Below, piece by piece: positions 14,811 through 43,567 of a DNA stretch of 64,000 nucleotides. The stretch is from Acidimicrobiales bacterium. GTDB taxonomy: Bacteria > Actinomycetota > Acidimicrobiia > Acidimicrobiales > Aldehydirespiratoraceae. Position numbers and translations under genes: made by a program. The DNA is taken from NCBI GenBank assembly GCA_033344915.1, contig JAWPML010000001.1, positions 1,298,369 to 1,362,368 on the forward strand, given 5' to 3'. Within the stretch, counting starts at the first letter, position 1. Each line of letters begins with the position of its first letter. Under the pieces are notes generated by a model, which was not told the DNA's origin, ran no database searches, and saw only the letters and a program-made list of their open reading frames with translations.

Positions 14811-17654
14811 GTGGCCGATCGACTCGTCATTCAAGGCGCCCGTGAACACAATCTTCGAGACGTCGATCTCGAGCTCCCGCGCGACCGGCTCATCGTGTTC
14901 ACCGGCCTGTCGGGGAGCGGCAAGTCATCCCTCGCGTTCGACACGATCTACGCCGAGGGCCAACGGCGTTATGTGGAGTCGCTGAGCGCCTACGCCCGTC
15001 AGTTCCTCGGTCAGATGGACAAGCCCGATGTCGACTTCATCGAAGGCCTGTCGCCCGCGATCTCGATCGACCAGAAGAGCGCGTCGCGCAACCCGCGGTC
15101 CACGGTCGGCACCGTCACCGAGGTCTACGACTACCTGCGGCTGCTGTTCGCCCGGATCGGCGTTCCCCACGACCCGGAGACGGGTGAGGAACTCGTCCGC
15201 CAGACCCCCCAGCAGATCGTCGACAAGATCCTCGCGATGGACGAGGGCACCCGCTTCCAGGTGCTCGCACCGGTCGTCCGGGGCCGGAAGGGCACCTACG
15301 ACACCCTCCTGCAGGATCTCGCCGGGCAGGGGTTCGCCCGGGCGATCGTGGACGGCGAGCCGCTCGAGCTCGCGGAAGAGCTCGAGCTGGAGTTGGAACG
15401 CTACGAGACCCACGACGTCTCGGTCGTGGTCGACCGTCTCGTCCTGCGTGAGGGCATCGAGCGGCGCCTCACCGACTCGATCGAGACCGCGCTCACCCTC
15501 ACGGGCGGCGTCGCCGAGATGCAGATCGTGCCGAAGGAGGGCGACGGTGACCCGGAGACGATCGTCTTCAGCCAGCACCTCTCACGGCCCTCCGACGGCA
15601 AGTCGTTCGAGGAGCTCGCGCCCCGCAACTTCTCGTTCAACTCGCCCTACGGCGCATGCACCCACTGTGACGGGCTCGGCACCGTCTTCGAGGTCGACCC
15701 CCAGCTCGTGGTGCCCGATCCCGACGCCACGGTCGAAGGCGGCGCGATCAGTCCGTGGGCGGGCGGCCGGAGTCGCTACTTCTCGCGTCTCGTCGAGTCG
15801 ATCTGCGACGAATACGACATCCCGATGGACAAGCCGTGGGAGAAGCTGACCAAGAAGCAGCGTGACCTGCTGCTCTACGCCAAGGGCGTGAAGGGCCGGC
15901 TCCAGGTCCGCTACAAGAACCGCTACGGCCGCACCCGCACCTATCAGGCCAAGTACGAGGGCGTCGTTCCCTATCTGATGCGCCGCCACACCGAGTCGGA
16001 GAGCGACGCGGCCCGAGAGGCCATCGAGGGCTACATGCGCCTGGTGCACTGCACCGAATGCGGGGGCTCGAGGCTGAACCCGCTGTCCATGGCGGTCACG
16101 ATCGACGGCCACACGATCCACGACCTGTGCTCGATGTCGATCGCCGAGGCCGCGAAGACCCTCGGCGAGATGCAGCTCAACGACCGCGACACGATCATCG
16201 CCGAGCAGGTGTTGAAGGAGATCAACGCCCGTCTCGGCTTCCTGCTCGACGTGGGCCTCGACTATCTGAGCATGTCGCGCAACGCGGCAACGCTCGCCGG
16301 CGGCGAGGCGCAGCGCATCCGCCTGGCCTCGCAGGTGGGCTCCGGGCTGGTCGGCGTGCTCTACGTGCTCGACGAACCGTCGATCGGGCTGCACCAGCGG
16401 GACAACCAGCGGCTGATCGAGACCCTGCTGCGCATGCGCGATCTCGGCAACACGGTCCTCGTCGTCGAGCACGACGAGGACACGATGAAGGTCGCCGACC
16501 ATGTGGTCGACATCGGGCCGGGCGCGGGGGAGCACGGCGGTCGGATCGTCCACTCCGGTACCTACAAACAGCTCCTGAAGAACAAGGACTCCATCACCGG
16601 GCAGTACCTGACCGGCAAGCGGGAGATCGCGGTTCCCGCCGTACGGCGGATCGGCGACGGCAGCAAGGTGGTCGTGCGCGGCGCCCGGGAGAACAACCTC
16701 AAGAACATCGACGTCGAGTTCCCGCTCGGCATGTTCGTCTGTGTGTCCGGGGTCTCCGGCTCGGGCAAGAGCTCCCTCGTGAACGAGATCCTCCATCGGG
16801 CCCTGATGCAACGGATCTACTCGTCGAAGGTGCCTCCCGGTCTCCACACCCGAGTCGAAGGCATCGACAACCTGGACAAGGTGATCGGCATCGACCAGTC
16901 GCCGATCGGGCGGACCCCCCGGTCCAACCCGGCCACCTACACCGGCGTGTTCGACCACGTCCGCAAGCTCTTCGCCCAGACCCAGGAGGCGAAGGTCCGC
17001 GGCTACCTCCCCGGCCGCTTCTCGTTCAACGTGAAGGGCGGCCGCTGCGAGGCATGCCAGGGTGACGGCACGATCAAGATCGAGATGCACTTCCTGCCGG
17101 ACGTCTACGTCCCTTGTGAGGTGTGCAAGGGCGAGCGCTACAACCGCGACACGCTCGAGATCACCTTCAAGGGCAAGAACATCTCCGAGGTCCTGCAGAT
17201 GCCGTGTGAGGAGGCGCTCGAGTTCTTCCAGAACCAGCCGGTGATCGCCCGGCACATGCAGACGCTCGTCGATGTCGGACTCGGGTATGTGCGCCTCGGA
17301 CAGCCTGCGCCCACCCTCTCGGGTGGCGAAGCGCAGCGGGTCAAGCTCGCCAGCGAACTCGCGAAGCGATCCACCGGCCACACCTGCTACATCCTCGACG
17401 AGCCCACCACGGGCCTCCACTTCGAGGACATCCGCAAGCTGCTCGGCGTGCTCGGTCGTCTCGTCGATCAGGGCAACTCGGTGCTGGTGATCGAGCACAA
17501 CCTCGACGTGCTGAAGACGGCGGACTGGCTGATCGATCTCGGTCCGGAGGGTGGCTCGGGCGGCGGCCAGCTGGTCGGCTGCGGCACCCCGGAGGAGATC
17601 GCCGAACTCCCCGAGAGCCACACCGGCCGTTTCCTCGCCCCATTGTTGGGCTGA
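14811..17654 (+). CDS. uvrA: Excinuclease ABC subunit UvrA with incomplete first zinc module
   Basis: This 947-residue damage-recognition ATPase has two ABC modules. Walker A1 is [14 protein letters not shown] (near residue 35), with signature [12 protein letters not shown] and [16 protein letters not shown]. Walker A2 is [13 protein letters not shown], with [12 protein letters not shown] and [11 protein letters not shown]. The second zinc module (CEACQGDG, then [10 protein letters not shown]) is intact, as is the CTECGGSRL pair. The first zinc module is odd: its second pair is present (C283 and C286 in ACTHCDG), but the first ligand pair, CxxC or CxxGH in relatives, is replaced by SRPSDGK near residue 258. 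The length is normal. The gene is SOS-controlled by position. Confidence 0.96.
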
Positions 17655-17808: not shown

Positions 17809-19152
17809 ATGCTGACCCGCCGGTTCCCCTTCGTTCTCGCGTACGGCGGCATCGCCGCGGTGATCCTCGGCTCGTCCAAGGCGCACGCCGCCTGGATCGC
17901 CGAGCACCCCTACGACTTCACCTCCAGTTTCCGGCTGCCGTGGGCGATCGCCTTCATCGCCCTCGTCGCCATGGCCACCTACTCGGTCGGGCTGCCCGAC
18001 GTGCCCCGCCGGCCCCGCCAGATCGCCGCGGCGGCGATCGCCGCGGTGGTGGGTGGCGTCGTTGCCGTGTCGGCCCTGCAGCTGATGGTCGGCGCCGTGT
18101 CGATGCCCCGGTTCGTCATCGTCGCGTCGGCCCTCACGCTGATGCCGTGGCTGGCGCTCACCGCGGTGGTTGCGGCCCGCAGTCACACGCGGGCCCGCGG
18201 GCAGGACCGGGCGGTCGTCATCGGCGCCCAGGAGGACAGCCGAACGCTCATCCACGAGCTCGACGAGCGGTCCGAGCGGCCCGGCCATGTCGTCGCGGTG
18301 CTTCATCCCGACGAGGCTCGACCGACGGCGCAAGACCGCATGCCGATCCGTTCGTTGGTCGACGCGGAGGACGCGACCGTGGTGGTGCTCGACCGCGACG
18401 CCCAGTCCTGCCAACCGATCGTGGACCAGGTCGCCCTGCTCCACGAGCAGGGCACCCGCGTGCGGACGCTCTCGCTCTTCTACGAGCAGTGGCTCGGCAA
18501 GTTCCCGATCGGGGAACTCGAGCGGGTGTCGCTCATGTTCGACATCGGCGAGATCCACCGGTTGCGGTACGGCCGCCTCAAGCGGTTGATGGACCTGTCC
18601 GTGGCCGTGTTGCTCCTCCCGGCCCTCGCGCTCGCCATCCCCCTCGTCGCGCTCGGGAACCTCCTCGGCAACCGGGGACCGCTGTTCTTCCACCAGGACC
18701 GGGTCGGCAAGGGGGGCCGGGTCTTTCGCATCCACAAGTTCCGCACGATGGTGCCGGAGCTCGATCCGCCGGACGACTGGTCGCCGTGGACCGACGTCGA
18801 GGACAGTCGGGTGACACCGTTCGGGGCGTTCCTGCGGTCGACCCACGTCGACGAGCTCCCCCAGCTGTTGAACATCCTCAAGGGCGAGCTGTCGCTGGTC
18901 GGGCCCCGTCCGGAGCAGCCCCACTATGTCGATCAGCTTGCGGCGAAGCTGCCCTACTACCAGCTCCGCCACCTCGTGCAGCCGGGCCTGACCGGCTGGG
19001 CGCAGGTGAAGTTCCGCTACGCCCGCTCCGAGGCCGATGCCCTCGAGAAGCTCCAGTACGAGTTCTACTACCTGAGGCGCCAGTCGCTGGCCGTCGACCT
19101 CAGGATCCTCGCCCGCACCGCGCGGACGATCGTCCCGATGGGAGACCGCTGA
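17809..19152 (+). CDS. Polyprenyl-phosphate sugar-1-phosphate transferase (WbaP/CpsE type)
   Basis: This 447-residue initiating enzyme transfers a sugar-1-phosphate to undecaprenyl phosphate to begin repeat-unit assembly at the membrane. N-terminal helices (about 5-120) precede a cytoplasmic Rossmann-like domain (about 140-240). The bacterial sugar transferase domain follows (about 260-447): a re-entrant helix at DLSVAVLLLPALALAIP, then GPLFFHQDRVGKGG, FRIHKFRTM, THVDELPQLLNILKGE, SLVGPRPE and PGLTGWAQV. All of these are core family motifs. It is the first gene of a forward operon, and its stop overlaps the next start (TGATG). Confidence 0.93.
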   Translation: MLTRRFPFVLAYGGIAAVILGSSKAHAAWIAEHPYDFTSSFRLPWAIAFIALVAMATYSVGLPDVPRRPRQIAAAAIAAVVGGVVAVSALQLMVGAVSMPRFVIVASALTLMPWLALTAVVAARSHTRARGQDRAVVIGAQEDSRTLIHELDERSERPGHVVAVLHPDEARPTAQDRMPIRSLVDAEDATVVVLDRDAQSCQPIVDQVALLHEQGTRVRTLSLFYEQWLGKFPIGELERVSLMFDIGEIHRLRYGRLKRLMDLSVAVLLLPALALAIPLVALGNLLGNRGPLFFHQDRVGKGGRVFRIHKFRTMVPELDPPDDWSPWTDVEDSRVTPFGAFLRSTHVDELPQLLNILKGELSLVGPRPEQPHYVDQLAAKLPYYQLRHLVQPGLTGWAQVKFRYARSEADALEKLQYEFYYLRRQSLAVDLRILARTARTIVPMGDR

Positions 19153-20243
19153 TGGCCGTGACCGCGCTCGCACTCGACGCATCCTCCGACCCCCGCCCGG
19201 CCCAGCCGGTGGTGTCGATCGCGGTCCCGATGCTGAACGAGGCCCGCTACATCCTGGCGTGCCTCGACAGCTTCGCCGCCCAGGACTACCCGCTCGACCA
19301 CCTCGACATGATGGTGATCGACGGCGGCTCCGACGACGGGAGTCGCATCGTCGTCGAGGCCTATGCCAAGGAGCATCCGTGGGTGCGGGTGGTCGACAAC
19401 CCGGTCGGCACCGCGGCCGCGGCGTTCAACGTCGGCATGTACGAAGCCCACGGTCAGGTGGTCTGCCTCTTCTCCTCGCACGGGGTCGCCGATCCGACAT
19501 TCGTTTCGGCCAGCGTCGACGCCCTGCACCGCTCCGGCGCGGCCGGCGTGGGCGGCGAGTACCGCCACGAAGGGACCGACCCCCGCTCGGCGTCGATCGG
19601 CGCGGCGATGGTCTCACCCGTCGGCATGGCGTCCCCCCACCGCTTCGCCTCCGAAGCGCGGGACGTGGACACGATCTCGCATCCCGTCTACTGGCGCGAC
19701 GCGATGCTCGCGACGGGGCCGTTCGACGAAGCGCTGAAGCGCAACTCCGACTACGAGTTCAACTATCGCGTCCGGGCCGGCGGGGAGCGCCTGCACTTCG
19801 ACCCGGCGATCGGTTCGGTCTACCGCCCCCGTCCGACGCTCAACGCGTTGTTCCGCCAGTTCTGGTTCTACGGCAAGTGGAAGGCCCGGGTCGCGGAGCG
19901 CTACCCGGCCACACTGCGGCCTCGCCACCTCGTCGCTCCGGCCGCGGTGGTCGGTGCGGTCGCGGCGCCGTTCGCGCTGCTGGTTCGCCCGCTGCGGGTC
20001 CCGGTGGCCGTGGTCGCGGGGCTCTACGCGTCCCTGGTCGCCCTGGGTACCGCGAAGGCGTCGCGGGGCCGCGACGACCTCCACGTTCCGACCCTGGCGG
20101 CCGCGTTCCCGGTGATGCACAGCGCGTGGGGTGCGGGCTTCCTCGCATCGACCCTTCGCCGCCTCTTCGGCGGCCCTCGACTCTCCTCCGAGCAGGTGTC
20201 CGTCTCCGGACCCACTTCGGACTCTGAAAGGAACCCGACATGA
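19152..20243 (+). CDS. Family 2 glycosyltransferase
   Basis: This 363-residue inverting GT-A enzyme is a likely glycan chain builder. The nucleotide-sugar fold begins VSIAVPMLNEARYI. The acidic motif appears as VIDGGSDDGS, NPVGTAAAAFNVGM follows, and a lysine/arginine acceptor loop precedes C-terminal helices (about 260-310), suggesting membrane association. The frame is open far upstream into the previous gene, but the ATG that overlaps the upstream stop is the sensible start. The next gene begins within its last four bases. Confidence 0.88.
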   Translation: MAVTALALDASSDPRPAQPVVSIAVPMLNEARYILACLDSFAAQDYPLDHLDMMVIDGGSDDGSRIVVEAYAKEHPWVRVVDNPVGTAAAAFNVGMYEAHGQVVCLFSSHGVADPTFVSASVDALHRSGAAGVGGEYRHEGTDPRSASIGAAMVSPVGMASPHRFASEARDVDTISHPVYWRDAMLATGPFDEALKRNSDYEFNYRVRAGGERLHFDPAIGSVYRPRPTLNALFRQFWFYGKWKARVAERYPATLRPRHLVAPAAVVGAVAAPFALLVRPLRVPVAVVAGLYASLVALGTAKASRGRDDLHVPTLAAAFPVMHSAWGAGFLASTLRRLFGGPRLSSEQVSVSGPTSDSERNPT

Positions 20244-21265
20244 GCATCGGAGTGGCCGTCATCGGCTACGGATACTGGGGGGTCAACCTGGCCCGCAACG
20301 TCGCTGCGGTTGCGGCGACCGACGTCATCGGCGTGGCCGATCCGAGCGCCGACCGCCGCGCGTTGGCCGCCGCCAACCTTCCCGGGATCGAGACCTGGGA
20401 CACGCTCGAGGACGCGTTGGACGACCCGCGGGTCGACGCCGTCGTGCTCGCCACTCCTGCGTCGACTCACACGTCCATGGCGCTCGCCTCGCTCGAGGCG
20501 GGGCGCGATGTGCTGGTCGAGAAGCCGCTCGCCGAGACCTCGGCCGACGCCGAGAAGCTCCTCGACGTCGCCCGGGACCGCGGCCGCATGCTCATGGTCG
20601 GGCACACGTTCCTGTACTCGCCGACCGTGCTGGCCCTCGGTGACATGATCGACGCCGGTGAACTCGGCGCGATCCAGTACCTGTACTCGCAGCGCCTGAG
20701 CCTCGGCCGCATCCGCCGCGACTGCAACGCTCTGTGGAACTTCGCGCCCCACGACATCTCGATCATGCTCCACCTCCTGGACGACACGGTCACCGAGGTC
20801 ACGGCCAAGGGCTTCTCGTTCATCGAGCCCGGGATCGACGACGTCTGCTTCGCCAGCCTCACGTTCGCGTCGGGGATCGGCGCCAACCTCCATGTGAGCT
20901 GGATCGATCCCCGCAAGACCCGCCTCATGACGGTGGTCGGCGACGAGAAGATGGCGATCTACAACGACGTCTCGGTGGACCAGCCCCTGTGGGTCGTGGA
21001 CTCGGGTGTGGCCAAGGACCAGGACCTCGGCGAGTACGAGAGCATGGGCGACTTCCAGTGGCGGACCCGCTCGGGTGACATCGTCATCCCCCGCATCGAG
21101 ATGTCCGAGCCGCTCCGCAACGAGATCTCGGCGTTCGCCGACGCCTGCGAGACCCGCGTGCCTCCCCGCACCGACGGACAGCACGGCCTGGAGGTCGTCC
21201 GGGTGCTGGAGGCGATCGACCGATCCGCCGGTGCGGCCGGCCGACCCGTGGAGCTCGACCGATGA
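20240..21265 (+). CDS. Gfo/Idh/MocA-family sugar oxidoreductase (WbpB/WlbA-like)
   Basis: This 341-residue NAD(P)-dependent dehydrogenase has an N-terminal Rossmann domain with VAVIGYGYWGVNLARN, the ATPASTH strand, the conserved EKP (VLVEKPLAE) and a C-terminal Gfo-type sheet domain. Followed directly by an aminotransferase and a left-handed-helix acetyltransferase, it matches the WbpB-WbpE-WbpD/WlbABC order, in which UDP-GlcNAcA is oxidised at C3, aminated and acetylated. The exact substrate is inferred from this context. Confidence 0.88.
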   Translation: MSIGVAVIGYGYWGVNLARNVAAVAATDVIGVADPSADRRALAAANLPGIETWDTLEDALDDPRVDAVVLATPASTHTSMALASLEAGRDVLVEKPLAETSADAEKLLDVARDRGRMLMVGHTFLYSPTVLALGDMIDAGELGAIQYLYSQRLSLGRIRRDCNALWNFAPHDISIMLHLLDDTVTEVTAKGFSFIEPGIDDVCFASLTFASGIGANLHVSWIDPRKTRLMTVVGDEKMAIYNDVSVDQPLWVVDSGVAKDQDLGEYESMGDFQWRTRSGDIVIPRIEMSEPLRNEISAFADACETRVPPRTDGQHGLEVVRVLEAIDRSAGAAGRPVELDR

Positions 21266-22365
21266 CCTCGACGCAACCGACCACGACGCCGGTTCCGTTC
21301 CAGGATCTCACCCGGCTCCACCGCAGCATCGCCGCCGAGATCGACGCCGCGATCGCCGATGTGATCGCTCGCTCCGCCTTCGTCGGGGCGGCATCGTCTG
21401 CACGTTTCGAGCAGGCCTTCGCCGCGGCCCACGGCGTGGACCACGCCCTCGGCGTCGGCTCCGGCACGGACGCGCTCGCGCTCGCGCTGCGGGCCCTCGG
21501 TGTCGGCCCCGGCGACGAGGTGATCGTGCCGGCCATGACGTTCGTCGCCACCGCCGAGGCGGTCGTCCACGCCGGCGCCGTCCCGGTGATCGCCGACGTC
21601 GACCCGACAACGCTCCTGCTCGACGAGCCGAGCGTCGCCGCCGTCCGCACCGATCGGACCGCGGCCGTCATGCCCGTCGACCTCTTCGGACACGTCGTGC
21701 CGTTCGCCACGATCGACAGCTGGCAGGCGGACGGACTCGCCGTCGTCGAGGATGCCGCCCAGGCGCATCTCGCCACATGGGAAGGCCGATCCGTCGGCGC
21801 GGTCGCCGACGCCGCGTGTTTCAGCTTCTACCCGGGAAAGAACCTGGGAGGCTTCGGTGACGGCGGCGCCGTCATCACGAACCGGGCCGACGTCGCCACG
21901 GGAGTCGCGAAGTTGCGGGACCACGGCCGCGAATCGAAGTACCTCCACGACGAGATCGGGTTCTGCAGCCGGCTCGACGGCCTCCAGGCCGCGGTCCTCG
22001 AGGTCAAACTCCGTCATCTGCCGACATGGACCGAGCAGCGGCGGACACTGGCCGATCGCTACCAGGAGCGCCTCGGCAGCCGTCTGGTGCCCTGGGAGGC
22101 GGGGGCGGTGCACCACCTGCTGGTGATGCGGGCCGACCCGGCCGGACGGGACCGCCTGCTCGACGCGCTGCGGGCCGAGGGGCTCGGCGTCGGTGTGCAC
22201 TATCCGGTCGCGCTGACCCAGCAACCCTCGCTCGCTCCCTACCTGACCGCCCCGTGCCCGCACGCCGAGGCGGCGGCTGCGTCGGTGCTCTCGCTTCCGA
22301 TGGACCCGCTCATGACGCTGACGCAGGTCGAGTACGTCTGTGACCTCGTGGAGGAGCTCAGCTGA
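21262..22365 (+). CDS. DegT/DnrJ/EryC1 sugar aminotransferase (WbpE-like)
   Basis: This 367-residue PLP enzyme is expected to aminate the keto-sugar made by the preceding dehydrogenase. The GSGTDAL phosphate-binding segment, EDAAQAHLA, and the PLP-lysine motif [16 protein letters not shown] (Lys in PGKN) are intact, as is RDHG. Start and stop overlap both neighbours (ATGA, TGATG), showing a tight operon. Confidence 0.92.
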
Positions 22366-22976
22366 TGCCGACGGCCGACACGCTCCAGCGGGGCGAGGCC
22401 CCGCTCGCCGACGACGCGCGGGGGTTCGTGCACGAGACGTCGCGGGTCGATGCCGGCGCGACGGTCGGCGACCGGACGCGGATCTGGCACTTCAGCCATG
22501 TCCTGCGCGACGCTCGCATCGGCGCCGGCTGCAACATCGGCCAGAACGTCATGATCGGTGCGGCCGTGGTGGTCGGTGATCACTGCAAGATCCAGAACAA
22601 CGTGAGCGTGTACGAGGGCGTCACCCTGGAGGACGGTGTGTTCTGTGGCCCCAGCTGCGTCTTCACCAATGTGGTGAATCCGCGCGCGGAGATCGAGCGC
22701 AAGGACGAGTTGCGGGAGACCCGGGTCGGCCGGGGCGCGACGATCGGCGCCAACGCGACCATCGTCTGCGGGCACGACGTCGGCGCCTACGCCTTCATCG
22801 CCGCCGGTGCTGTCGTGACGGCCCCGGTGCCGGCGCACGCACTCGTGGTCGGTGTTCCGGGCCGACAGATCGGGTGGGTGAGCCGCGGTGGCCACCGGCT
22901 CGCCGACGACCTCGTCTGTCCCGAGACGGGTGAGCGCTACGTCGAGACGGCCGACGGCCTTCAGCTCGTCAGCTGA
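22365..22976 (+). CDS. Left-handed beta-helix sugar N-acetyltransferase (WbpD-like)
   Basis: This 203-residue hexapeptide-repeat protein should acetylate the 3-amino group made by the preceding aminotransferase. Successive coils such as [26 protein letters not shown] and [18 protein letters not shown]-type turns form the helix, with [18 protein letters not shown] as the usual C-terminal cap. Its 3' end overlaps the convergent sulfotransferase gene by 16 bases. Confidence 0.9.
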
Positions 22977-23875
22977 GCGGCGCTCGGCGAGAACCGCTCC
23001 GGCACCAGGTGCCCGGGTCGACGCCGATCGACTCCCGTCGCCCGCTCCACAGCCGCGGCGACGCTCTCGAGCACGGACTGCGGAGCCGTCACCAGCGTCT
23101 CGTAGTCGGTGTCGACCCATGTGACCTGGGGAAACGCCTCGTGGGCAGCGTCGAGGGCCAAACGCACGCCGTGGATCTGCCCGCGGACCTGCTCCTCGGG
23201 TGAGCGGGCTCGGAGCGCCTCGACGTCGCGGGGTTCGACGGACCACCAGTTGTCGACGGAACCGGTCTCGCTCGCTCGAGCGCGGAGGATGCTCGCCGCC
23301 GTGTCGCCGGCATCGCGCCGGACGTCGATGACGATCGCCTCGGGGACGGCCGCCAGGATCGGCTCGAGCCGGACGCTGTTGACGACGTTCTTCCACACGA
23401 CCGGCCGGTCGGCGCGCTGGATGAGCGCGCTCATGGAGCGGCGGAGGGCGAGGCGCGACCGCGGGGCGACGTCGTCGGCGGCGACCGCCTGCGGGGAGCG
23501 GGGAAAGAATCGATACCACCAGGTCGCCCCTTCGTGGGGTTCGCGGAGTGATCGGCCTCGTCCGTGGTCCGACCGGAAGTGTGTCGCGATCCCGGACTGC
23601 AGCCGGGTCGACACGAGGGCCGCCGGCGCGCCGGCGGCCACGTTGTGCCAGCCGGAGAACCACCCGATGTCGAGGCCGGCGATCAGCACCTGCTGGAGCA
23701 GCGACGTGCCCGAACGGGGCGCGCCGACGACGAGCAGGGGCGGGTGGAGGAGGGGGTCCGGCGCACGGTGGGCACGCTCGAGAACCGAGACGAGCGCCAC
23801 CGTGCCGTGATGGGCGCGGCGAGCCGGAGCACGAAGGGGTCGCACCCCCTCCCATCGGCGGGCCCGGCCCGACAA
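22961..23875 (-). CDS. PAPS-dependent sulfotransferase family protein (1)
   Basis: The PAPS 5'-phosphosulfate loop is [14 protein letters not shown], and a later [14 protein letters not shown] segment resembles the 3'-phosphate-binding region. The product probably sulfates a glycan or a small molecule. The gene faces the amino-sugar operon and diverges from the flippase gene. The start is unsure: the longest frame begins with TTG, but a GTG at 23800 leaves a more typical lead of about 20 residues before the loop. Confidence 0.75.
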
Positions 23876-23924
23876 TTAGCGGGGATTGGCTCATCGCCGT
23901 GCGGCGAATTGCCGATGGAAGAAC

Positions 23925-25256
23925 GTGGAAAACGTGAGGGATGCGGGCCGCCGCGGTTGGATTCGTGATGTCGGCGTCCTGATGGGGGGCAGCGCCGGTG
24001 GCCAGGTCCTCGCCGTCGCCGTCCTTCCGGTGACGAGCCGGCTCTTCGATCCGTCCGAGCTCGGCACCTTTGCGGTGTTCCTCGCGGCGGTGACGATCCT
24101 CTACGCGATGGCCGCACTGCGCTTCGACGCGGCAATCCCGGTTCCCGAGCGGGAGGACGTCGCGTCGTCGCTGACGACGATCGCCCTTCGCACCGCAGCC
24201 GCGATCGGCCTGGTCGTGGCGCTGGTCGGCGCCGTGTTCGGCCCGGTCCTCGGCGACGCGATGGGTATCGGCGGCGTGGCGTCCTGGGTCTGGCTGATCG
24301 GGCCCACGGTCTTCGTGGCCAGTGCCTTCCAGACCCTCGTCACCTGGAACACCCGCATCGGTTCGTTCGGTGTCATCTCGGTCGCCCGGCTCCTCCAGGG
24401 CGTCGGACTCGCCGGTGGCCAGATCGTGGCCGGCCTCATGGGGGCCGGCGCCGTCGGTCTGCTCTTCGTCCCGATCATCGCCTGGAGCGTCGCGAGCGCC
24501 TTTCTGCTCTTCCGCCTGATCCGAACCGGTGGCCTCCCGCCCGGGACGCCGTCGCTGGGCGAGGTCGTGTCCCGCTACCGCCGCTTCCCGCTGATCATGT
24601 CGTGGTCGGTCGTCGCGAACCGGATCTCGACGGAGATCGCGCCGGCGGCGATCGCGGCGATCCACGACCCGAAGATCGCCGGCCTCTTCCTCCTCGCCTC
24701 GCGGATCACGTATCGCCCGGTCAGCGTCATCACCCAGAGCATGAGCCAGGTCTACGTGCACCGGGCGGCCCGGGTGTGGGCCACCGAACCCGCCGCGCTG
24801 CGGCGCATCATCGCGGGGCTGTCCCGCAATCTGCTGCTCGTGGCCGCGCTGCCGGCCCTGATCGGCGTCCTGTTCGCGCCGCAGATCTTCGCCGTCGCCC
24901 TCGGCGAGTCCTGGCGTGAGGCCGGCCGCTACGCGACCTACCTCGTGCCGATGGCGATCGCCGGCCTCGTGTCGACGTCGTTCACCCCCACCTTCGCCGT
25001 CACCGAGCGTCAGGACCTCCAGCTCTACCGCGAGCTCATGCGCCTGGTCGTCGTGCTCGGTTCCTTCGGCTTTGCGCTGGTCGTGGACGCGTCACCGGGC
25101 GCGACGGTGGCGCTCTACAGCGGCGCCGCGACCGTCGGCTACCTGCTCCTGCTCGCGATGGTCTGGCGAGCGGCCGACCCGGACGAGGCGCGGACGCCGG
25201 GGCATGTGCGGGAGGCCCCCACCGCCCCGGATGCGGCACAGGGGGCGCTCGCATGA
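23925..25256 (+). CDS. Wzx-like polysaccharide flippase (MOP superfamily)
   Basis: The product has about 443 residues with twelve to fourteen hydrophobic segments. It opens with a basic stretch and VGVLMGGSAGGQVLAVAVLPV, then SRLFDPSELGTFAVF, a segment typical of lipopolysaccharide/teichoic-acid flippases. It should move lipid-linked repeat units across the membrane. The start is uncertain: TTG at 23886 and GTG at 23925 or 23934 are all in frame, and GTG at 23925 has a weak GGAAGA upstream. It overlaps the next gene by four bases. Confidence 0.85.
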   Translation: MENVRDAGRRGWIRDVGVLMGGSAGGQVLAVAVLPVTSRLFDPSELGTFAVFLAAVTILYAMAALRFDAAIPVPEREDVASSLTTIALRTAAAIGLVVALVGAVFGPVLGDAMGIGGVASWVWLIGPTVFVASAFQTLVTWNTRIGSFGVISVARLLQGVGLAGGQIVAGLMGAGAVGLLFVPIIAWSVASAFLLFRLIRTGGLPPGTPSLGEVVSRYRRFPLIMSWSVVANRISTEIAPAAIAAIHDPKIAGLFLLASRITYRPVSVITQSMSQVYVHRAARVWATEPAALRRIIAGLSRNLLLVAALPALIGVLFAPQIFAVALGESWREAGRYATYLVPMAIAGLVSTSFTPTFAVTERQDLQLYRELMRLVVVLGSFGFALVVDASPGATVALYSGAATVGYLLLLAMVWRAADPDEARTPGHVREAPTAPDAAQGALA

Positions 25257-26224
25257 ACGCGCCCTTCGTCTTCATCGTCGGGTGCGGTCGGTCCGGCACG
25301 ACCATGCTGCGGTCGATGCTGGACAGCCATCCGGAGGTCGCGATCCCTCGCGAGTCCTACTTCATCGACACCATGCGGCGCCGCCGGGACGGCTACGTCG
25401 GCGCGACGGGCTTCGACGTCGAGCGATTCCTCGACGATCTGCTCCCCGATGTGCGTTTCCGCCGCTGGGAGCTCGATCCCGAGATGGTCGCGGACGCGGT
25501 GCGGGCGGCGGAACCGGCCGACCTGGGCGCCGCCTGTCGCGCCGTCTACGACGTCTTTGCCCGGGAGCAGGGGGCGACGCGGCCGTTCGACAAGACGCCG
25601 ATGTACGCCCTGTGCGTGCCCGAGCTGCATCAGCTCTTCCCGGACGCCCGCTTCGTGCACCTCGTGCGCGACGGTCGCGACGTCGCCGCGAGCTACGCAG
25701 AGACGGACTTCGGTCCCCGCGGCCTCGCCGCGGCGGCGTCCTACTGGCGGCGGGTGATCCGTGCGGTCGACGCCGCGAGTGCCGTCGTCGGGCCGGAGCA
25801 GCTCCGGACATTCCGCTACGAGGACCTCGCCGCCGACCCGGCCGGGACCCTCCAGGCGATCAGCGCGTTCGTCGAGCTGGACTACGACGAGCGCATGCTC
25901 GACTTCGCCACCCACATGAAGACGCGACCCCGCCGTCAGCCGGCCGCGACGAAGCAGAAGCTCGCCGGCCCTGCGGCGGCCGGAGTGCGCAACTGGACCC
26001 AGATGGCGCCCGCGGACGTGCGTCTCGTCGAGTCCGTCGCCGGCGCCGAACTCCGGGGCGCCGGCTATGCCCTGTCCGACTACCCGGTGTCCGCGGTTCA
26101 GCGGCGCGCGGCGCGGGCTCGGGCGGTGTCGGCCGGGGCCGTCCACCGGGCCGAGCTCGGCCTCCGGCGCACCCGGATGTTCAACCGGCTGCGACCGGCG
26201 AAGGGTGTGTGGGCGGGGGCGTGA
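25253..26224 (+). CDS. PAPS-dependent sulfotransferase family protein (2)
   Basis: This 323-residue protein has the 5'-PSB loop FIVGCGRSGTTMLRSML at the N-terminus and the 3'-PB-type segment FVHLVRDGRDVAASYAE near residue 140, both well conserved. GVRNWTQM late in the protein also fits sulfotransferases. It is translationally coupled to the flippase gene (ATGA), which supports modification of the exported glycan. The 3' end overlaps the convergent deacetylase gene by 44 bases. Confidence 0.88.
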   Translation: MNAPFVFIVGCGRSGTTMLRSMLDSHPEVAIPRESYFIDTMRRRRDGYVGATGFDVERFLDDLLPDVRFRRWELDPEMVADAVRAAEPADLGAACRAVYDVFAREQGATRPFDKTPMYALCVPELHQLFPDARFVHLVRDGRDVAASYAETDFGPRGLAAAASYWRRVIRAVDAASAVVGPEQLRTFRYEDLAADPAGTLQAISAFVELDYDERMLDFATHMKTRPRRQPAATKQKLAGPAAAGVRNWTQMAPADVRLVESVAGAELRGAGYALSDYPVSAVQRRAARARAVSAGAVHRAELGLRRTRMFNRLRPAKGVWAGA

Positions 26225-27596
26225 CCCGTTCCGTGTCGGCCGCGAGGCCGCACGCGGCGAGTCGGCCGCGAACCGCGGTCTCGATCTCGGCCAGGGTCAC
26301 CCAGTCGTGGCGGTCGGGATCGTGGAGTTCCCAGTAGAGGTCTGCGAAGCGGCGGGGGAGTTGGAAGCCCTGCAACACGGGGTCGTGCCAGAGCACGGAC
26401 ACGCCGCCGAGCCCGTGCTCGTCGACGGCGTCCAGCACCGCCTCGCACTCCTCGCGCCACGCCGGGCAGGTCGTGCTGCGGTCGGCGACGGCCACGTCCA
26501 TGATCGGAGTGGGGATCTCGATCACCGGGCTCACGGTGTCGCGGTCGAGGTCGTAGAGCGGATGCGGGTGGGCGATGCCCGTGCGGAAGCCGATGCGGTC
26601 CGAGAAGCCGGCCGAGGCGTCGTAACGAGCGCCGGCATCCTCGAGGGCCCCGATGAGCTCGGTGGTGGACCCATAACGCAGCCAGTGCTGACGGCTGCCG
26701 CAGAGGTCGGGGACGGTCGAGCGCAGCCGGTCGTATTCCTCGGCCAAACGCCCGCGGGCCTCCAGGGAGGTGTAGCTGCCGTGCACGGCGTGTTCGTGAC
26801 CGAAGGCGGCGATGCGGTTCAGCCGCCCGGTGAACGCCGGGCCGGCCGCGACGTAGCGGGCATCGCGGGGGTGCTCGTCGCGGACCAGCCAGGTGTAGGT
26901 GGCCCGGATCCCGCGGTCGTGTTCGCGGCGGGCGACCCGTTCGATCCCGCGATCGAGTCGGCCGCTCGCGGCGCGTGCGGCGCCGGCGGTGAGGAGCCGG
27001 GCCGCATGGCCCGGCGCGCGAAAGCGCGTCGTGGCCGCAGCCGCCCACACCGCGAGGCGGCGCGCCGTGTCGCGTCGCGATGTCGGGAGGAAGTCGACGT
27101 CGTGCGACGCACCGATGAGCCGGCGGCCGCCGCCGAGGGTGGACGGGGCGGAGACGATCCCGAGCGCATCGGCGAGCTGCCGTTGCAGCGCGTCGACGAG
27201 GCGAGACCCCCAGGGGACGACCGGGGAGAGGGCCGCACGAACCGCGAGAGTGTCCGCGGACGGGACGCGGCCGACGTCGTCGCCTCGCTCGGTCGCCGCC
27301 TCGTGGGCCGACGATGCCCACTCGAAGATCTCGGCGAGCAGATCGGGACCGTGCGCCGTCTGCGGGTGGTGGAGGGGGAGTCCGTCCCACATCGTCGGCT
27401 GGGGGGCGGGCACGGCGAGGGGGCGCCAGCGCGGCGTCGCCGGCAGGAGCGGCGAGCCGTAGGTCAGGACGTGGTCGGCCCCAGTCGGCGCGACGATCTC
27501 GTGCCCGTGGGCGAGCGCCCAGATCCCGGCCGCGAACCGCACGCGCGGCGCGACGGTCGCGTACTCGTCGGGGACGACGAGCGCGACGCGGCTCAC
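26181..27596 (-). CDS. Polysaccharide deacetylase family protein (CE4-like)
   Basis: This protein has 471 residues. The first part (about 1-140) is a family-specific N-terminal domain. The catalytic NodB-like domain begins near ASHDVDFLP (metal Asp/His) and includes the His pair in FGHEHAVHGSYTS, then VIEIPTPIMDVAV and VSVLWHDPVLQG as later barrel strands. Such proteins occur in exopolysaccharide loci, where they trim N-acetyl groups. The GTG at 27596 overlaps the upstream stop (GTGA) and is preferred to a longer frame with a low-complexity Arg/Pro start. It is the third gene of a minus-strand operon. Confidence 0.82.
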   Translation of the reverse strand: MSRVALVVPDEYATVAPRVRFAAGIWALAHGHEIVAPTGADHVLTYGSPLLPATPRWRPLAVPAPQPTMWDGLPLHHPQTAHGPDLLAEIFEWASSAHEAATERGDDVGRVPSADTLAVRAALSPVVPWGSRLVDALQRQLADALGIVSAPSTLGGGRRLIGASHDVDFLPTSRRDTARRLAVWAAAATTRFRAPGHAARLLTAGAARAASGRLDRGIERVARREHDRGIRATYTWLVRDEHPRDARYVAAGPAFTGRLNRIAAFGHEHAVHGSYTSLEARGRLAEEYDRLRSTVPDLCGSRQHWLRYGSTTELIGALEDAGARYDASAGFSDRIGFRTGIAHPHPLYDLDRDTVSPVIEIPTPIMDVAVADRSTTCPAWREECEAVLDAVDEHGLGGVSVLWHDPVLQGFQLPRRFADLYWELHDPDRHDWVTLAEIETAVRGRLAACGLAADTERVTPPPTHPSPVAAG

Positions 27597-28522
27597 CGGC
27601 CCGCCAGGTGTCGGGCGGCCTCGACGGCGCGGTAGCCGGCGCCGGCCACTCGGCCGAAGTGGAGGTACTGGAACCAGATCTGCTGGTGGGCGCCGAATCC
27701 GCGGAAGAACCGCTCGATGCCGGGAACCATGGATCCTTCGAAGTCGAAGACCCGGCTCGTCGTGGCCGCGTGCTTGATCGCCTCCCACAGCAGGAGGCTC
27801 TGGGCGCCGGAGGAGCGCAGGTCCGGGTCGGCGCCGCCGCCGAGGTAGTAGGTCCGGTCGTCGTCCCAGGCGAGGAGGACGGAGGCATGCAGCCGCCCGT
27901 CGTCGTCGAGCGCGCTGAGCGTCATGCCCTGGCCCCGCTCGGTGCTTTCGCGCACGACGCGGTGGAGCAGGGCTTCGTCGACCGGGGCGCGGCGGTCCTG
28001 GCGCTCGAACGTCGCGCTCATCATCCGATGCAGTTCACCGGCATCGCCGCGGCTCACGACGGTGAGGCGCTTCTCGGCCTTGCGGATGGCCCGGCGGGTG
28101 GACTCGCTGCAGTCCTTCCAGCGGGCCTCCTGGTCGTGCAGCTCCCGGAGCTCGTAGGTCACGCGGGGCCGGACGTCGAAGCCGGCCCAGCCGAAGGGAA
28201 GATGGTTGAGATCGTCGGGCGGTGACCCGAAGAGCAGCATGTCGTGGCGGGGGAGTGCGGCGATCAGCTCCTGCTTGAGGTCGTGATCCCGGCTCAGCAG
28301 CTTGGTGCGCTTCCCCTCGCCGGGCGCGATCTCGGGACCGAGGTAGGGCGTGAGCGGCGGGGCGCCGAGTTGGGTGAGACCGAAGCGTCGCCGCCGGGCG
28401 AAGCGCCAACGGCCGACGGGCCCCTGGTCGCCGTCGACGGTGACCTCGTCCCAGGAGTCGGGGGCGACGGCGTCGAGCCACCACGATTCGTGGAACACGG
28501 TGCGAGGCGTCAGGTCGGCCAT
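27593..28522 (-). CDS. FemAB-like GNAT acyltransferase
   Basis: This 309-residue protein is of the acetyltransferase type seen in cellulose and exopolysaccharide loci. Features are FHESWWLDAVAPDSW at the start, an RRAIRKAEKRL helix before the second fold, and the C-terminal GNAT repeat with LSALDDDGRLHASVLLAWD, YYLGGGADPDLR and VFDFEGSMVPGIERFFRGFG. The last motif (GS, E, FKR-like) is characteristic of FemAB-related enzymes that work on cell-wall or glycan substrates. The ATG lies one base after the upstream sulfotransferase stop. Confidence 0.82.
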   Translation of the reverse strand: MADLTPRTVFHESWWLDAVAPDSWDEVTVDGDQGPVGRWRFARRRRFGLTQLGAPPLTPYLGPEIAPGEGKRTKLLSRDHDLKQELIAALPRHDMLLFGSPPDDLNHLPFGWAGFDVRPRVTYELRELHDQEARWKDCSESTRRAIRKAEKRLTVVSRGDAGELHRMMSATFERQDRRAPVDEALLHRVVRESTERGQGMTLSALDDDGRLHASVLLAWDDDRTYYLGGGADPDLRSSGAQSLLLWEAIKHAATTSRVFDFEGSMVPGIERFFRGFGAHQQIWFQYLHFGRVAGAGYRAVEAARHLAGR

Positions 28523-28523
28523 C

Positions 28524-29528
28524 TCAGACCCCTGCGGACGCGCCGGCCCGCTTCGTGATGCGCCGCATCGCCGCCCGGCGATCGTCGCGGGCGGCATCGT
28601 CGGAGCGCAGCATGACTCGGACCCGTTCTCGGGCATAGGTCGTCGTGTCGACGACGCGTTCGAGGGGCCGCAGCGGACGGCGCACGCCGTCCGCGAAGGC
28701 GGGTCGGTAGCCGAGCCGGAGCAGCATGTCGCCGGCCCGGCGCTCGAATCGTTCGACATCGGCCTCGGCCGCTTCGTGGCGCCACTTCTCGCTGTTGTCG
28801 GCGTTCACGGGCTTGTCGAGGTTGCGCCACATCTCGAGCCGGGTGGCGTCCTCGCGCGCCCGGGCACTCTGCTCGGGCGCGGTCATCGCGTCCTGGAAGG
28901 GAAGGTCGATCGCCGCGCAGGCGGCCCGCAGCGTGCCCTCCGGATCCGCGGTGAGTGCCTCGTAGGCGATCGTCGTCGTGGGCACGGCGCCCGTGAGCCG
29001 CTCCATGGTGTCGAGGCACGCCTCCTGCTCGGCCCGCCACTTGTCGGCGAGACGGGGCCAGGTGTGGGCGACGCGACCGCTCTTGCGGTAGCTGAGGGCG
29101 GCGTCGCGTCCGTCACGATGGAGATGGATGACCCGAGCGCCGGGAATCTCGGCGAGCTCGTCGGCGAAGCGCCAGAGTTCGTTCTCCTTGCAGAACCAGT
29201 CGTGGGCGCCATCGGCTGCCGCTTCGGCCGCGTACGTCGCTGCGACCAGGCCGGGGATGGTGCGCCCGTGGGCCGAGGCCACGATCCGGGCCTCGTCGTG
29301 GGGTCGGGTCCACGGTCCGGTGTTCGTCCGGCACAGTTCGAGCACGTCGCGCACGACGGCCCGGGCCCGCTCGTCGTCGGTCAGGTCGCCGTAGGCCGCG
29401 GCGAGCGGGGTGAGCGTCCGCAGCAGGTGCGGCGCGGGCGGTCCGGACACGTCCGAGTGGCGGTCGAACATCACCCGCAGGAGGTTCGTGCCCGACCGTT
29501 CGGACGCGAGAAGGAGGATCGGAGCCAT
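28524..29528 (-). CDS. PAPS-dependent sulfotransferase family protein (3)
   Basis: This 334-residue protein has the 5'-PSB loop ILLLASERSGTNLLRVMFD at the very N-terminus and VIHLHRDGRDAALSYRKSG as the 3'-PB region. It contains KWRAEQE and NSEKWRHE blocks found in many bacterial sulfotransferases. It heads the minus-strand operon sulfotransferase-GNAT-deacetylase and diverges from uvrC across 87 bases that contain a GGCCC-N5-GGGCC palindrome. Confidence 0.88.
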   Translation of the reverse strand: MAPILLLASERSGTNLLRVMFDRHSDVSGPPAPHLLRTLTPLAAAYGDLTDDERARAVVRDVLELCRTNTGPWTRPHDEARIVASAHGRTIPGLVAATYAAEAAADGAHDWFCKENELWRFADELAEIPGARVIHLHRDGRDAALSYRKSGRVAHTWPRLADKWRAEQEACLDTMERLTGAVPTTTIAYEALTADPEGTLRAACAAIDLPFQDAMTAPEQSARAREDATRLEMWRNLDKPVNADNSEKWRHEAAEADVERFERRAGDMLLRLGYRPAFADGVRRPLRPLERVVDTTTYARERVRVMLRSDDAARDDRRAAMRRITKRAGASAGV

Positions 29529-29615: not shown

Positions 29616-31532
29616 ATGGTGCAGCGCCCGCCGGCCGGGTCGATCCCCGACACGCCCGGCTCGTATCAGTTCAAGGACGCCGAAGGCCGCGTGATCTACG
29701 TCGGCAAGGCGAAGAGCCTGCGGTCGCGCCTGTCCAACTACTTCCAGAACCCGCGGAACCTCCCCACCCGCACCCGGCAGATGGTGGAGACCGCCGAGTC
29801 GGTCGAGTGGATCCAGGTGGCCAACGAGGTCGAGGCGCTGATGCTCGAGTTCTCCTTGATCCAGCGCCACAAGCCGCGTTTCAACGTGCGCTACACCGAC
29901 GACAAGTCCTACCCGTTCCTGTGCCTGACGACGGTCGACGAGTGGCCGCGGGCGATGGTGATGCGGGGCAAGCGCAAGAAGGGGAACCGCTACTTCGGGC
30001 CCTACGGGCAGGCGTACGCGATCCGCGACACGCTCGATCTGCTGCTGCGGACCTTCCCGATCCGCACGTGCACGGACAACAAGTTCCGGCACCACGAGAA
30101 GCTCGGCAAGCCGTGCCTGCTGTTCCACATCGAGAAGTGCGCCGGGCCCTGCGTGGGGGAGATCGAGAAGCCGGCCTACGACGAGATGGTCGAGGAGCTG
30201 ATCTCGTTCCTCGAGGGTGACACCGACGAGATCGTCGCCAAGCTCGAAGCGCAGATGCAGACGGCCTCGGAGGATCTCGAGTTCGAACTCGCGGCGCATC
30301 TGCGGGATCGGCTCACGGCGGTGCGCAAGGCGATCGAGAAGCAGCAGATGGTCTTCGCCCGCAACGAGGACGTCGACGTGATCGGGCTCCACGGCGACGA
30401 GCTGGAGACGGCCGTCCAGGTGTTCTACGTGCGCAAGGGCCGGGTGATGGGACGGCGCGGCTTCGTGGTCGACAAGGCCGAGGAGCTCGACGGGCCGGAG
30501 CTGGTGAGCCGGGTGCTCGAGCGCCTCTACTTCGAGGACAATCCGGTCGGGTCGCCGAAGGAGGTGCTCGTCCCGGAGCTTCCGAGCGATCCGGCGTTGT
30601 ACGAGGAGTGGCTGACCGAGGCGCGCGAGTCGAAGGTGCAGATCCGGGTGCCCCAGCGGGGCGACAAGCGCAAGCTCCAGGAGACGGTCACCCAGAACGC
30701 CCAGGAGTCCTTCAATCGGCACCGCCTCAAGCGGACCAACGACCACAACAGCCGGGCGCGGGCGCTCAACGAACTCCAGGAGCACCTGGATCTGCCGCTC
30801 GCGCCCCTGCGGATCGAGTGCTACGACATGAGCCACATCCAGGGGTCGGACTATGTCGGCTCGATGGTGGTGATGGAGGACGGCCTGCCGAAGAAGTCCG
30901 ACTACCGCCGCTTCAAGATCCAGACGGTGCCGGGCAACGACGACTTCGCGGCCATGGAGGAGGTGCTCACCCGCCGGTTCACCGCCTACCTGCGGGAGCG
31001 CAAGGTGCCGGTGGAGGAGCGCGAGGGTCGGTTCTCGTATCCGCCGCAGCTGCTCGTCGTGGACGGCGGCAAGGGGCAGCTGAGCGTCGCCACCCGCGTG
31101 CTGGACGAGCTCGGGCTGCGCGACGAGATCCCCGTCGTCTCGCTCGCGAAGCAGTTCGAGGAGGTGTTCGTGCCCGGGCGCAGCGAGTCGATCCGCCTTC
31201 CCCGACAGTCCGAGGCGCTCTACCTCCTCCAGCGCATCCGCGACGAGAGCCACCGCTTCGCCATCACGTTCCACCGCCAGCTGCGGGACAAACGGATGAC
31301 GAAATCCGCACTCGACGGCATCGAAGGGCTGGGCCCGGCCCGCAAGAAGCGGCTCGCCAAGGAGCTGGGCGGCGTCAACGCGGTCAAGCGTGCCGAACTC
31401 GAGGACCTCAAGAAGCTGTCCTGGTTGCCCGACGAGGTAGCAGAGAACGTTTTTCGCGCACTGCACCGGGTGGGTTCATCCGGGACGGACACGCGACGTC
31501 GGCTCCCACCGCCCGTGGAGGGTGCCGAGTAG
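29616..31532 (+). CDS. uvrC: Excinuclease ABC subunit UvrC
   Basis: This 638-residue dual-incision nuclease of excision repair has an N-terminal GIY-YIG domain (GSYQFKD, then VIYVGKAKSLRSRL), a Cys cluster near residue 155 (KCAGPCVGEI), a UVR motif around residue 205, a C-terminal RNase H-like nuclease (CYDMSHIQG with its Asp, LVVDGGKGQL) and helix-hairpin-helix motifs (DGIEGLGPARKKRL). All domains are complete and the length is normal. Confidence 0.97.
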   Translation: MVQRPPAGSIPDTPGSYQFKDAEGRVIYVGKAKSLRSRLSNYFQNPRNLPTRTRQMVETAESVEWIQVANEVEALMLEFSLIQRHKPRFNVRYTDDKSYPFLCLTTVDEWPRAMVMRGKRKKGNRYFGPYGQAYAIRDTLDLLLRTFPIRTCTDNKFRHHEKLGKPCLLFHIEKCAGPCVGEIEKPAYDEMVEELISFLEGDTDEIVAKLEAQMQTASEDLEFELAAHLRDRLTAVRKAIEKQQMVFARNEDVDVIGLHGDELETAVQVFYVRKGRVMGRRGFVVDKAEELDGPELVSRVLERLYFEDNPVGSPKEVLVPELPSDPALYEEWLTEARESKVQIRVPQRGDKRKLQETVTQNAQESFNRHRLKRTNDHNSRARALNELQEHLDLPLAPLRIECYDMSHIQGSDYVGSMVVMEDGLPKKSDYRRFKIQTVPGNDDFAAMEEVLTRRFTAYLRERKVPVEEREGRFSYPPQLLVVDGGKGQLSVATRVLDELGLRDEIPVVSLAKQFEEVFVPGRSESIRLPRQSEALYLLQRIRDESHRFAITFHRQLRDKRMTKSALDGIEGLGPARKKRLAKELGGVNAVKRAELEDLKKLSWLPDEVAENVFRALHRVGSSGTDTRRRLPPPVEGAE

Positions 31533-40702: not shown

Positions 40703-40732
40703 TACCGGGGTGTGGCGGCTGGGCCACGCCGC

Positions 40733-40738
40733 TACGAT
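40733..40738 (+). promoter_or_regulatory. -10 element of the tRNA-Leu gene
   Basis: TACGAT lies 32 bases before the mature tRNA 5' end, consistent with a promoter producing a short 5' leader for RNase P. Confidence 0.45.
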
Positions 40739-40770
40739 TGCGCTTCGCATCCACCTCGGTGGGTGGCCAC

Positions 40771-40855
40771 GTCGGAGTGGCGGAATTGGCAGACGCGCTA
40801 GCTTGAGGGGCTAGTGCCCGATAAGGGCGTGGGGGTTCAAGTCCCCCCTCCGACA
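40771..40855 (+). tRNA. tRNA-Leu (anticodon GAG)
   Basis: It has 85 nucleotides with a long variable arm (class II). The acceptor arms GTCGGAG and CTCCGAC pair fully, the discriminator is A and CCA is not encoded. The anticodon stem CTAGC/GCTAG encloses TTGAGGG with GAG at 40805-40807. The T arm is GTGGGGGTTCAAGTCCCCCC-like with GGGGG/CCCCC and the TTCAAGT loop. The 3' end acts as the attachment site of the island that follows. Confidence 0.97.
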
Positions 40856-40858
40856 CGT
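40841..40858 (+). other. attL-like site in the tRNA-Leu 3' end
   Basis: GTCCCCCCTCCGACACGT spans the T-arm 3' strand, the acceptor 3' strand and three bases beyond the tRNA. It matches 17 of 18 bases of the copy at 45522. Confidence 0.65.
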
Positions 40859-40867
40859 TTGGCATAA

Positions 40868-40904
40868 GCCCTGGTCAGAGCGTTTTCAACGCTGTGACTG
40901 GGGC
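40868..40904 (+). terminator. Hairpin downstream of tRNA-Leu
   Basis: AGCGTT and AACGCT enclose a TTC loop. The stem extends outward through CCCTGGTCAG / TGACTGGGG with a few mismatches or wobbles and is followed by ATTGTTGTG. Probably the tRNA transcription terminator. Its outer arm contains CTGGTCAG, the core of the tpiA-secG repeats. Confidence 0.5.
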
Positions 40905-41046
40905 ATTGTTGTGTCGGAGCAGATGCAGTTGCAGGCCTGTGACCTGCGGTTTTGTGGGGTGTCGGAGGGGTGGACCGTCAGGATTCCGCCCATTGCTCGA
41001 CCACCATGAAATCCCTGGTCAGGGAGGGTTCTCGGCGGTAGGGGTG

Positions 41047-41074
41047 TCGTTTGCAAATGGATTTGCAAATGACA
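41047..41074. repeat. 28-base nested palindrome just inside the island
   Basis: Two copies of TTTGCAAAT (each extendable to the self-complementary ATTTGCAAAT) are flanked by GTC and GAC, so that the whole 28 bases are also an imperfect palindrome with GG at the centre. Its AT-rich core stands out from the surrounding DNA. It could be a recombinase or excisionase arm site or a regulator operator. Confidence 0.5.
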
Positions 41075-41114
41075 GGGTCCGAGATCCTCGTCGATCCAGC
41101 CGGTCCTGCTCGGC

Positions 41115-43565: not shown

Positions 43566-43567
43566 CT

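Follow-up and report, generated by a model that had tools for sequence, protein, structure and literature searches.

Results

Gene content of the uvrA–uvrC interval

The subject of this work is a block of eleven genes (g1–g11) that lies between uvrA and uvrC in an Acidimicrobiales bacterium (Actinomycetota; Aldehydirespiratoraceae; GenBank assembly GCA_033344915.1). The window, that is the whole stretch of DNA analysed, comprises 64,000 nucleotides (positions 1,298,369 to 1,362,368 of contig JAWPML010000001.1, forward strand), and coordinates below count from its first nucleotide. The source genome is a single contig of 4.48 Mb and is 96% complete. Pfam and NCBIfam scans place the 11.7 kb block at 17809–29528; 17809 is the start of the priming transferase gene g1 and 29528 is an ATG that fits g11. 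The left flank is uvrA (14811–17654, + strand; PF17755, PF17760) and the right flank is uvrC (29616–31532, + strand; PF08459, 9.5e-56). A first-pass annotation, made from the sequence by itself, had described a surface-polysaccharide cluster here. Its observation is confirmed, as the boundaries and every part it named (priming transferase, glycosyltransferase of family 2 (GT2), amino-sugar genes, flippase and three sulfotransferases) are in place by Pfam and NCBIfam.

The block opens with five genes on the + strand. The product of g1 (17809–19152; PF02397, 9.1e-55) is a predicted polyprenyl-phosphate sugar-1-phosphate transferase, the priming enzyme, which scores 284.6 bits against TIGR03025 (cut-off 295.55). 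It is followed by the GT2 protein (g2, 19152–20243; PF00535, 5.2e-19), a Gfo/Idh/MocA oxidoreductase that resembles UDP-GlcNAc(A) 3-dehydrogenases and would take the role of WbpB (g3, 20240–21265; PF01408, 6.9e-27), a DegT/DnrJ/EryC1 aminotransferase in the putative role of WbpE (g4, 21262–22365; PF01041, 4.3e-94) and a hexapeptide N-acetyltransferase in that of WbpD/WlbB (g5, 22365–22976; PF00132, 7.6e-20). One sulfotransferase gene is on the − strand (g6, 22961–23875; PF13469, 2.8e-16). The + strand then carries a Wzx-type flippase (g7, 23886–25256; PF13440, 4.2e-12), whose start may lie further in, for example at 23982, and a second sulfotransferase (g8, 25253–26224; PF13469, 6.3e-41). The right end of the block is on the − strand and is transcribed in the order g11, g10, g9. 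These encode the third sulfotransferase (g11, 28524–29528; PF13469, 7.5e-22), an acyltransferase of the FemAB/GNAT (GCN5-related N-acetyltransferase) type (g10, 27593–28522; PF13480, 1.6e-18 on the longer open reading frame (ORF) 27596–28759; TIGR03019, 9.9e-7, below cut-off) and a deacetylase of the carbohydrate esterase family 4 (CE4) type, a distant relative of VimE (g9, 26181–27596; NCBIfam VimE, 2.8e-6, below cut-off).

The strand order gives four blocks (+, 17809–22976; −, 22961–23875; +, 23886–26224; −, 26181–29528) and not the two divergent sub-operons that had been read from it, and g9 and g10 were missing from the earlier gene list, whose named genes all stand. The priming transferase g1 and the Wzx flippase g7 are two features of Wzx-dependent glycan loci; a third, a Wzy polymerase in the locus, was not found by Pfam.

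A recurrent site between two repair genes

A search for UvrC and UvrA covered 61 related genomes (the source genome included), 43 of which have both on one contig; the gaps between them were computed by hand. The gap is 0–200 bp in 17 of these 43, bearing out the earlier remark that uvrA and uvrC are often neighbours, 200–5000 bp in 13 and 5–15 kb in 13. A homologue of the priming transferase lies inside 12 of the 13 intervals of at least 5 kb (the exception is G038), and is present also in the contig-broken intervals of G003, G005, G006 and G048. It was found in none of the eight that were fetched from the 13 middle-size intervals; six of these eight contain a quinolinate-synthase-family gene (one assigned by Pfam, the others grouped by similarity). 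Comparison of the interval in related genomes, suggested as a check with the first-pass annotation, thus finds the site empty, filled, or filled with other genes.

The g1–g5 block is common to G003 and G004, which belong to the same genus as the source genome, and to G021 from another genus, and the right half varies. G004 and G021 have a different flippase there, along with a glycosyltransferase that includes a methyltransferase domain. The G003 interval, which spans two contigs whose join is inferred, holds a flippase, an FAD-oxidoreductase-like gene, a sulfotransferase, a methyltransferase-like gene (read by eye) and the g9–g10 pair. In G002, again of the same genus, the sole gene at the site encodes a flavin monooxygenase. 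The shared g1–g5, the differing right halves and the content of G002 therefore support cassette change at a fixed site. The contents given for the other cassettes are partial, because the GC-based gene caller overlooks genes in metagenome-assembled genomes (MAGs) of lower GC. A search for UvrC among named genome contigs gave 80 loci, all titled MAGs. The closest, the contig of MAG DHS20C19, encodes a UvrC that is 98% identical, and homologues of g10 and g11 adjoin its uvrC at 92% identity.

In G041 the gene directly upstream of uvrC (L025, 12952–15156) encodes a 734-aa protein that, by eye only, resembles the alkaline phosphatase/sulfatase superfamily and has membrane segments.

A GT-C-like membrane protein on the other side of uvrA

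A gene between uvrB and uvrA (13078–14766, + strand) encodes a multi-spanning membrane protein with 10 hydrophobic segments that resembles glycosyltransferases of the GT-C type. It has no Pfam match; NCBIfam relates it to the LA_3751/LA_3752 family of putative glycosyltransferases (4.8e-20, 72 bits, cut-off 200). All ten genomes of the family of the source genome (f1) that have a single-contig interval of at least 5 kb carry a homologue upstream of uvrA. These are the window itself, L054, L065, L066 and six more; among these six, identity is 35% in G004, the G025 gene is in pieces, and the rest are 41–54% identical. No homologue was found (1e-5, 3.7 kb upstream of uvrA) in the ten genomes fetched from the 17 with an empty site, and in four of these ten uvrB is also not within the 3.7 kb. 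For family f1, ten of ten filled sites vs none of ten fetched empty sites gives a Fisher value of 1e-5, without correction for relatedness. A fragment of the gene is present at L056, where the uvrA–uvrC gap is 288 bp. The GT-C-like protein is probably part of the glycan system, and the data as a whole support a recurrent cassette site of the form uvrB-[GT-C-like]-uvrA-[cassette]-uvrC in one Acidimicrobiales family.

Amino-sugar genes and the g9/g10 pair

Taken together, g3, g4 and g5 fit the synthesis of a UDP-2,3-diacetamido sugar, as judged from their sequence families. The best NCBIfam match of g3 is UDP-GlcNAc 3-dehydrogenase (1.3e-46, below cut-off). Among solved structures (PDB), g4 matches WbpE (3nyu) at 4.1e-64, ranking behind three other aminotransferases, and the best match of g5 is an acetyltransferase of lipopolysaccharide biosynthesis (3mqg, 1e-64). 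WbpE- and WbpD-type enzymes are present at the locus as g4 and g5, and a nucleotide-sugar 6-dehydrogenase, a candidate for the role of WbpA, is encoded elsewhere in the genome (locus L129; TIGR03026, over cut-off).

The deacetylase g9 has no Pfam match. Its stretches HDVD, HGSYTS, HWLR and VLWHD, which we take to be CE4 motifs, are wholly or nearly kept in its homologues, two of which match VimE at 1.4e-14 (G003) and 7.6e-46 (G233), both below cut-off. In a sample of the order (248 genomes) g9 and g10 both occur in the same two genomes, one being the source genome. In a sample of the phylum (396 genomes, source included; up to 4–9 candidates scored per genome) a g9-type protein occurs in 13 and g10 in one. 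The co-occurrence held in the order sample and not in the phylum sample, and is therefore used weakly here. The g9/g10 pair may work like the Vim enzymes; we make no claim of family membership.

Deacetylases of the g9 type were also seen in other actinobacterial families, where by eye one adjoins a flippase-like gene (L151) and two open a frame of ~785 codons after an ATP-grasp-like gene (L152, L156).

Sulfotransferases and the supply of activated sulfate

All three sulfotransferases of the block keep the RSGT loop for 3′-phosphoadenosine-5′-phosphosulfate (PAPS), as RSGTS, RSGTT and RSGTN. In the whole source genome PF13469 gave 15 matches (14 above the cut-off), three of which fall within these 11.7 kb; the binomial chance of this is 8e-6, a value computed after the block was picked. 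At least one PF13469 match is found in 44 of the 61 relatives vs 2 of 14 control genomes. A scan with a profile of the source genome's domains covered 80 named contigs and 31 interval stretches, 111 loci in all, with some contigs in both sets. On the upstream side of uvrC, sulfotransferases were recovered in the contig-broken G003 and G005 (same genus), in L069 and weakly in G060 (2e-8). L069 is a MAG contig that lacks uvrA and whose UvrC is 75% identical; by eye, its two sulfotransferases stand behind a flippase-like ORF. Seven further loci gave matches downstream of uvrC, outside the interval.

A search for cysDNC and PAPS genes had also been suggested as a check, and such genes are present. 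The source genome encodes an adenosine-5′-phosphosulfate (APS) kinase (3.4e-68), adjoined at ~2.33 Mb by ORFs that read by eye as cysN, cysD and CysQ-like; the cysD-like ORF is also matched by PF01507.

Other loci of the source genome, read by eye from translations unless a family scan is named (L126–L135), include two of glycan type. One (L127, G000:C1:3422000-3441900) has ABC-transporter-like genes, very large glycosyltransferase-like proteins and two proteins with the sulfotransferase motif, and has counterparts in two congeners (L142, L143). In the other (L129, G000:C1:3058000-3077900) a sulfotransferase is next to ABC glycan-transporter-like genes, with the nucleotide-sugar 6-dehydrogenase some kilobases on. 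In a genome of another genus, seven listed PF13469 matches (of 8 in the genome) and an APS-kinase match lie within 22 kb (G013:C48:24104-46635; L136, L137), possibly a dense sulfated-glycan locus.

Discussion

A model for the locus

We propose that the block is a cassette-type cell-surface glycan locus at a recurrent site, and that it probably makes a flipped, sulfated glycan containing a 2,3-diamino sugar. In the proposed pathway g1 would load a sugar phosphate onto the polyprenyl carrier in the cytoplasm and g2 would attach a sugar, with g3, g4 and g5 providing the UDP-2,3-diacetamido sugar. One N-acetyl group would probably be taken off by g9, and g10 would probably install another acyl or amino-acyl group where g9 had acted. 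Sulfate from PAPS made by cysDNC would be added by g8 and g11, perhaps also by g6. The glycan would then be flipped by g7 and transferred or polymerised outside, either by the GT-C-like protein or by a Wzy-type protein from elsewhere in the genome. The block itself yielded no Wzy, and the GT-C-like protein may therefore be the outer-face transferase.

The evidence supports part of the interpretation in the first-pass annotation. The sulfated, amino-sugar-rich product predicted there agrees with amino-sugar-type genes standing with PAPS-type sulfotransferases in a glycan locus, but g6 falls on the scattered side of the sulfotransferase tree and sulfotransferases are in the minority at the site. 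The term surface polysaccharide is borne out so far as a glycan locus is meant, but no polymerase family was found in the block, and the product could be either a polysaccharide or a short oligosaccharide.

A number of observations weigh against the proposal. A PDB search with g3 gave 42 matches at 1e-10, and neither WbpB nor WlbA is among their names, many of which are generic. The scores of g9 against VimE (26.2 bits, cut-off 440) and of g10 against TIGR03019 (28.1 bits, cut-off 260) are far below what those families ask for, so that g9 does not reach the equivalog status of VimE. Neither protein has a credible match among solved structures in the PDB, and the predicted structure models are too poor to use (predicted local distance difference test scores of 35 for g9 and 47 for g10). 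The 12 other genomes of the phylum sample that have a g9-type protein yielded no g10 homologue at 1e-10 among the up to 5 candidates scored in each genome, and G233 has its g9 and g10 homologues on different contigs, with no glycan genes adjoining the g10 one. The exosortase family PF09721, the sortase type that was searched for, has no match in the source genome. The association of the GT-C-like gene with the cassette is broken by G002 (L047), which has the gene without a glycan cassette, and by three genomes from outside family f1 with gaps of at least 5 kb, in which the gene was not found upstream of uvrA. APS kinase is present in 55 of the 61 relatives and 11 of the 14 controls and also serves assimilation; a second PF01507 match of the source genome, at 403176, could be CysH, and all 14 controls have PF01507 matches. 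PAPS therefore need not be dedicated to sulfation, and its genes are weak evidence for it.

The size of the product is one point on which another explanation is a real possibility. No match to a polymerase family was returned among the eleven genes by Pfam scans, and the block has a single PF02397 protein and, besides this primer, a single glycosyltransferase, the GT2 protein g2. Because of this a short oligosaccharide is a possible product. A disaccharide built by the primer and one glycosyltransferase would be flipped, and the GT-C-like protein, whose gene tracks the cassette, would then move it to a protein or a lipid, giving a short lipid-linked sulfated oligosaccharide or a glycolipid. 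Against such a short product, the source genome encodes elsewhere three proteins that match PF04932 (Wzy_C) above its cut-off, and at least one related cassette has more glycosyltransferases (L034, two with Glycos_transf_1-type matches).

The substrates of the sulfotransferases are a separate matter. Some or all of the three could act on protein tyrosine, lipids or small molecules and be mere neighbours of glycan genes, which we consider unlikely. Among solved structures, most matches of g8 and g11 are protein-tyrosine sulfotransferases (7 of 10 matches, best 2.1e-13, for g8; 7 of 9, best 3e-6, for g11), with polyketide sulfotransferases next; a PDB search with g6 gave no match. Only a minority of filled uvrA–uvrC sites contain sulfotransferases, since 11 of the 12 other single-contig intervals of at least 5 kb gave none and one gave a weak match, so that most filled intervals of relatives lack them. 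However, a tree of 12 domains of the source genome, taken without support values, places g8 and g11 together with L006 and L007, sulfotransferases from the glycan-type loci L127 and L129. L011, another sulfotransferase of L127, falls outside this group, and g6 stands at the base of the scattered sulfotransferases, five of which sit among genes reading as metabolic. In L069, too, sulfotransferase genes come after a flippase, as read by eye, and three sulfotransferases in one block would be improbable by chance, with the post hoc nature of that estimate in mind. The action of the sulfotransferases on the glycan is thus still the reading we prefer. Heparan N-deacetylase/N-sulfotransferase provides a model for a different chemistry, in which g9 would free an amine and g11 would sulfate it. 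The three genes g11, g10 and g9 are consecutive on one strand, 1 bp apart and overlapping by 4 bp. This scheme is nevertheless highly improbable: G003 keeps the g9–g10 pair without an adjoining g11, and therefore re-acylation fits better than N-sulfation, and the Pfam, NCBIfam and PDB searches returned no match to an N-sulfotransferase family.

Comparison with known systems

In Porphyromonas gingivalis and Tannerella forsythia the Wbp and Vim enzymes are proposed to exchange an N-acetyl group for an amino acid, giving a sugar that is joined to proteins; VimA is linked to TIGR03019, and certain other species have vimA and vimE homologues next to a full set of Wbp genes (all as outlined in PMC7468200). 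The present locus has a 3-aminotransferase and a 3-N-acetyltransferase in common with that pathway, as outlined there, together with candidates for its 3-oxidase, CE4 deacetylase and GNAT-type transferase. The differences are that the scores of g9 and g10 fall far short of the family cut-offs, that the 6-dehydrogenase is elsewhere in the genome, that no exosortase was found, and that the locus adds three sulfotransferases and has an actinobacterial host.

Sulfotransferases within a Wzx-type glycan cluster are also a feature of xss, the described cluster of Synechocystis for the sulfated exopolysaccharide synechan; its product is reported to be sulfated, and the account of the cluster gives eight glycosyltransferases, Wzy and polysaccharide co-polymerase (PCP) genes (PMC8205485). 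The block described here differs in having one GT2 besides the primer, no recognised Wzy or PCP, and diamino-sugar-type genes. An actinobacterial Wzx cluster with two sulfotransferases, wps-1 of Actinoplanes missouriensis, is predicted to make a sulfated polysaccharide, a prediction that by its authors' account of 2026 awaits verification (PMC13390465). In what that source states, the sulfotransferase domains are of other InterPro types, Wzy and Wzz are present and no deacetylase/FemAB pair is noted. Sulfated bacterial polysaccharides are called essentially cyanobacterial in statements of both papers (PMC8205485, PMC13390465), and sulfated exopolymers are reported in two Kiritimatiellae in the title of a further one (PMC7356697). 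Literature searches on Acidimicrobiales or Acidimicrobiia sulfation, uvrA/uvrC polysaccharide loci, Wbp/Vim with actinobacteria or sulfotransferases and sulfotransferases in polysaccharide clusters gave no account of the locus among the titles and starts of abstracts listed (8 of 356 for Wbp/Vim). What the analysis adds is the recurrent uvr site, the GT-C-like gene beyond uvrA and a possible Vim-type step.

The locus is a further actinobacterial candidate for a sulfated glycan; its genome has PAPS genes, and some relatives also have sulfotransferases at this site. The Klebsiella K locus, a variable locus of the serotype type, resembles the uvr site in its fixed flanks, conserved end gene and variable interior. 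The flanks here differ in being nucleotide-excision-repair genes, and the site is empty in many relatives. The uvrA–uvrC site offers a simple address for locating surface-glycan cassettes in uncultured Acidimicrobiales.

Were the g9/g10 pair to act as proposed, it would bear on whether Wbp/Vim-type sugars serve protein attachment beyond type IX secretion, a question that the discussion in PMC7468200 leaves for further work. In a bolder scheme, which at present is a distinctly doubtful speculation, the product would be a sulfated glycan with an N-aminoacylated 2,3-diamino sugar, an actinobacterial analogue of the linking sugar of the Wbp/Vim pathway; a not-yet-recognised enzyme would attach exported proteins to it, and the uvrB-uvrA-uvrC neighbourhood would be the variable surface-antigen locus of the family.

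Base composition gives no sign of a low-GC foreign island, the block having ~69–74% GC vs ~67–72% in the flanks. Elsewhere in the window, at 40000–46000, GC falls to ~65–67% with strong changes of GC skew compared with the rest.

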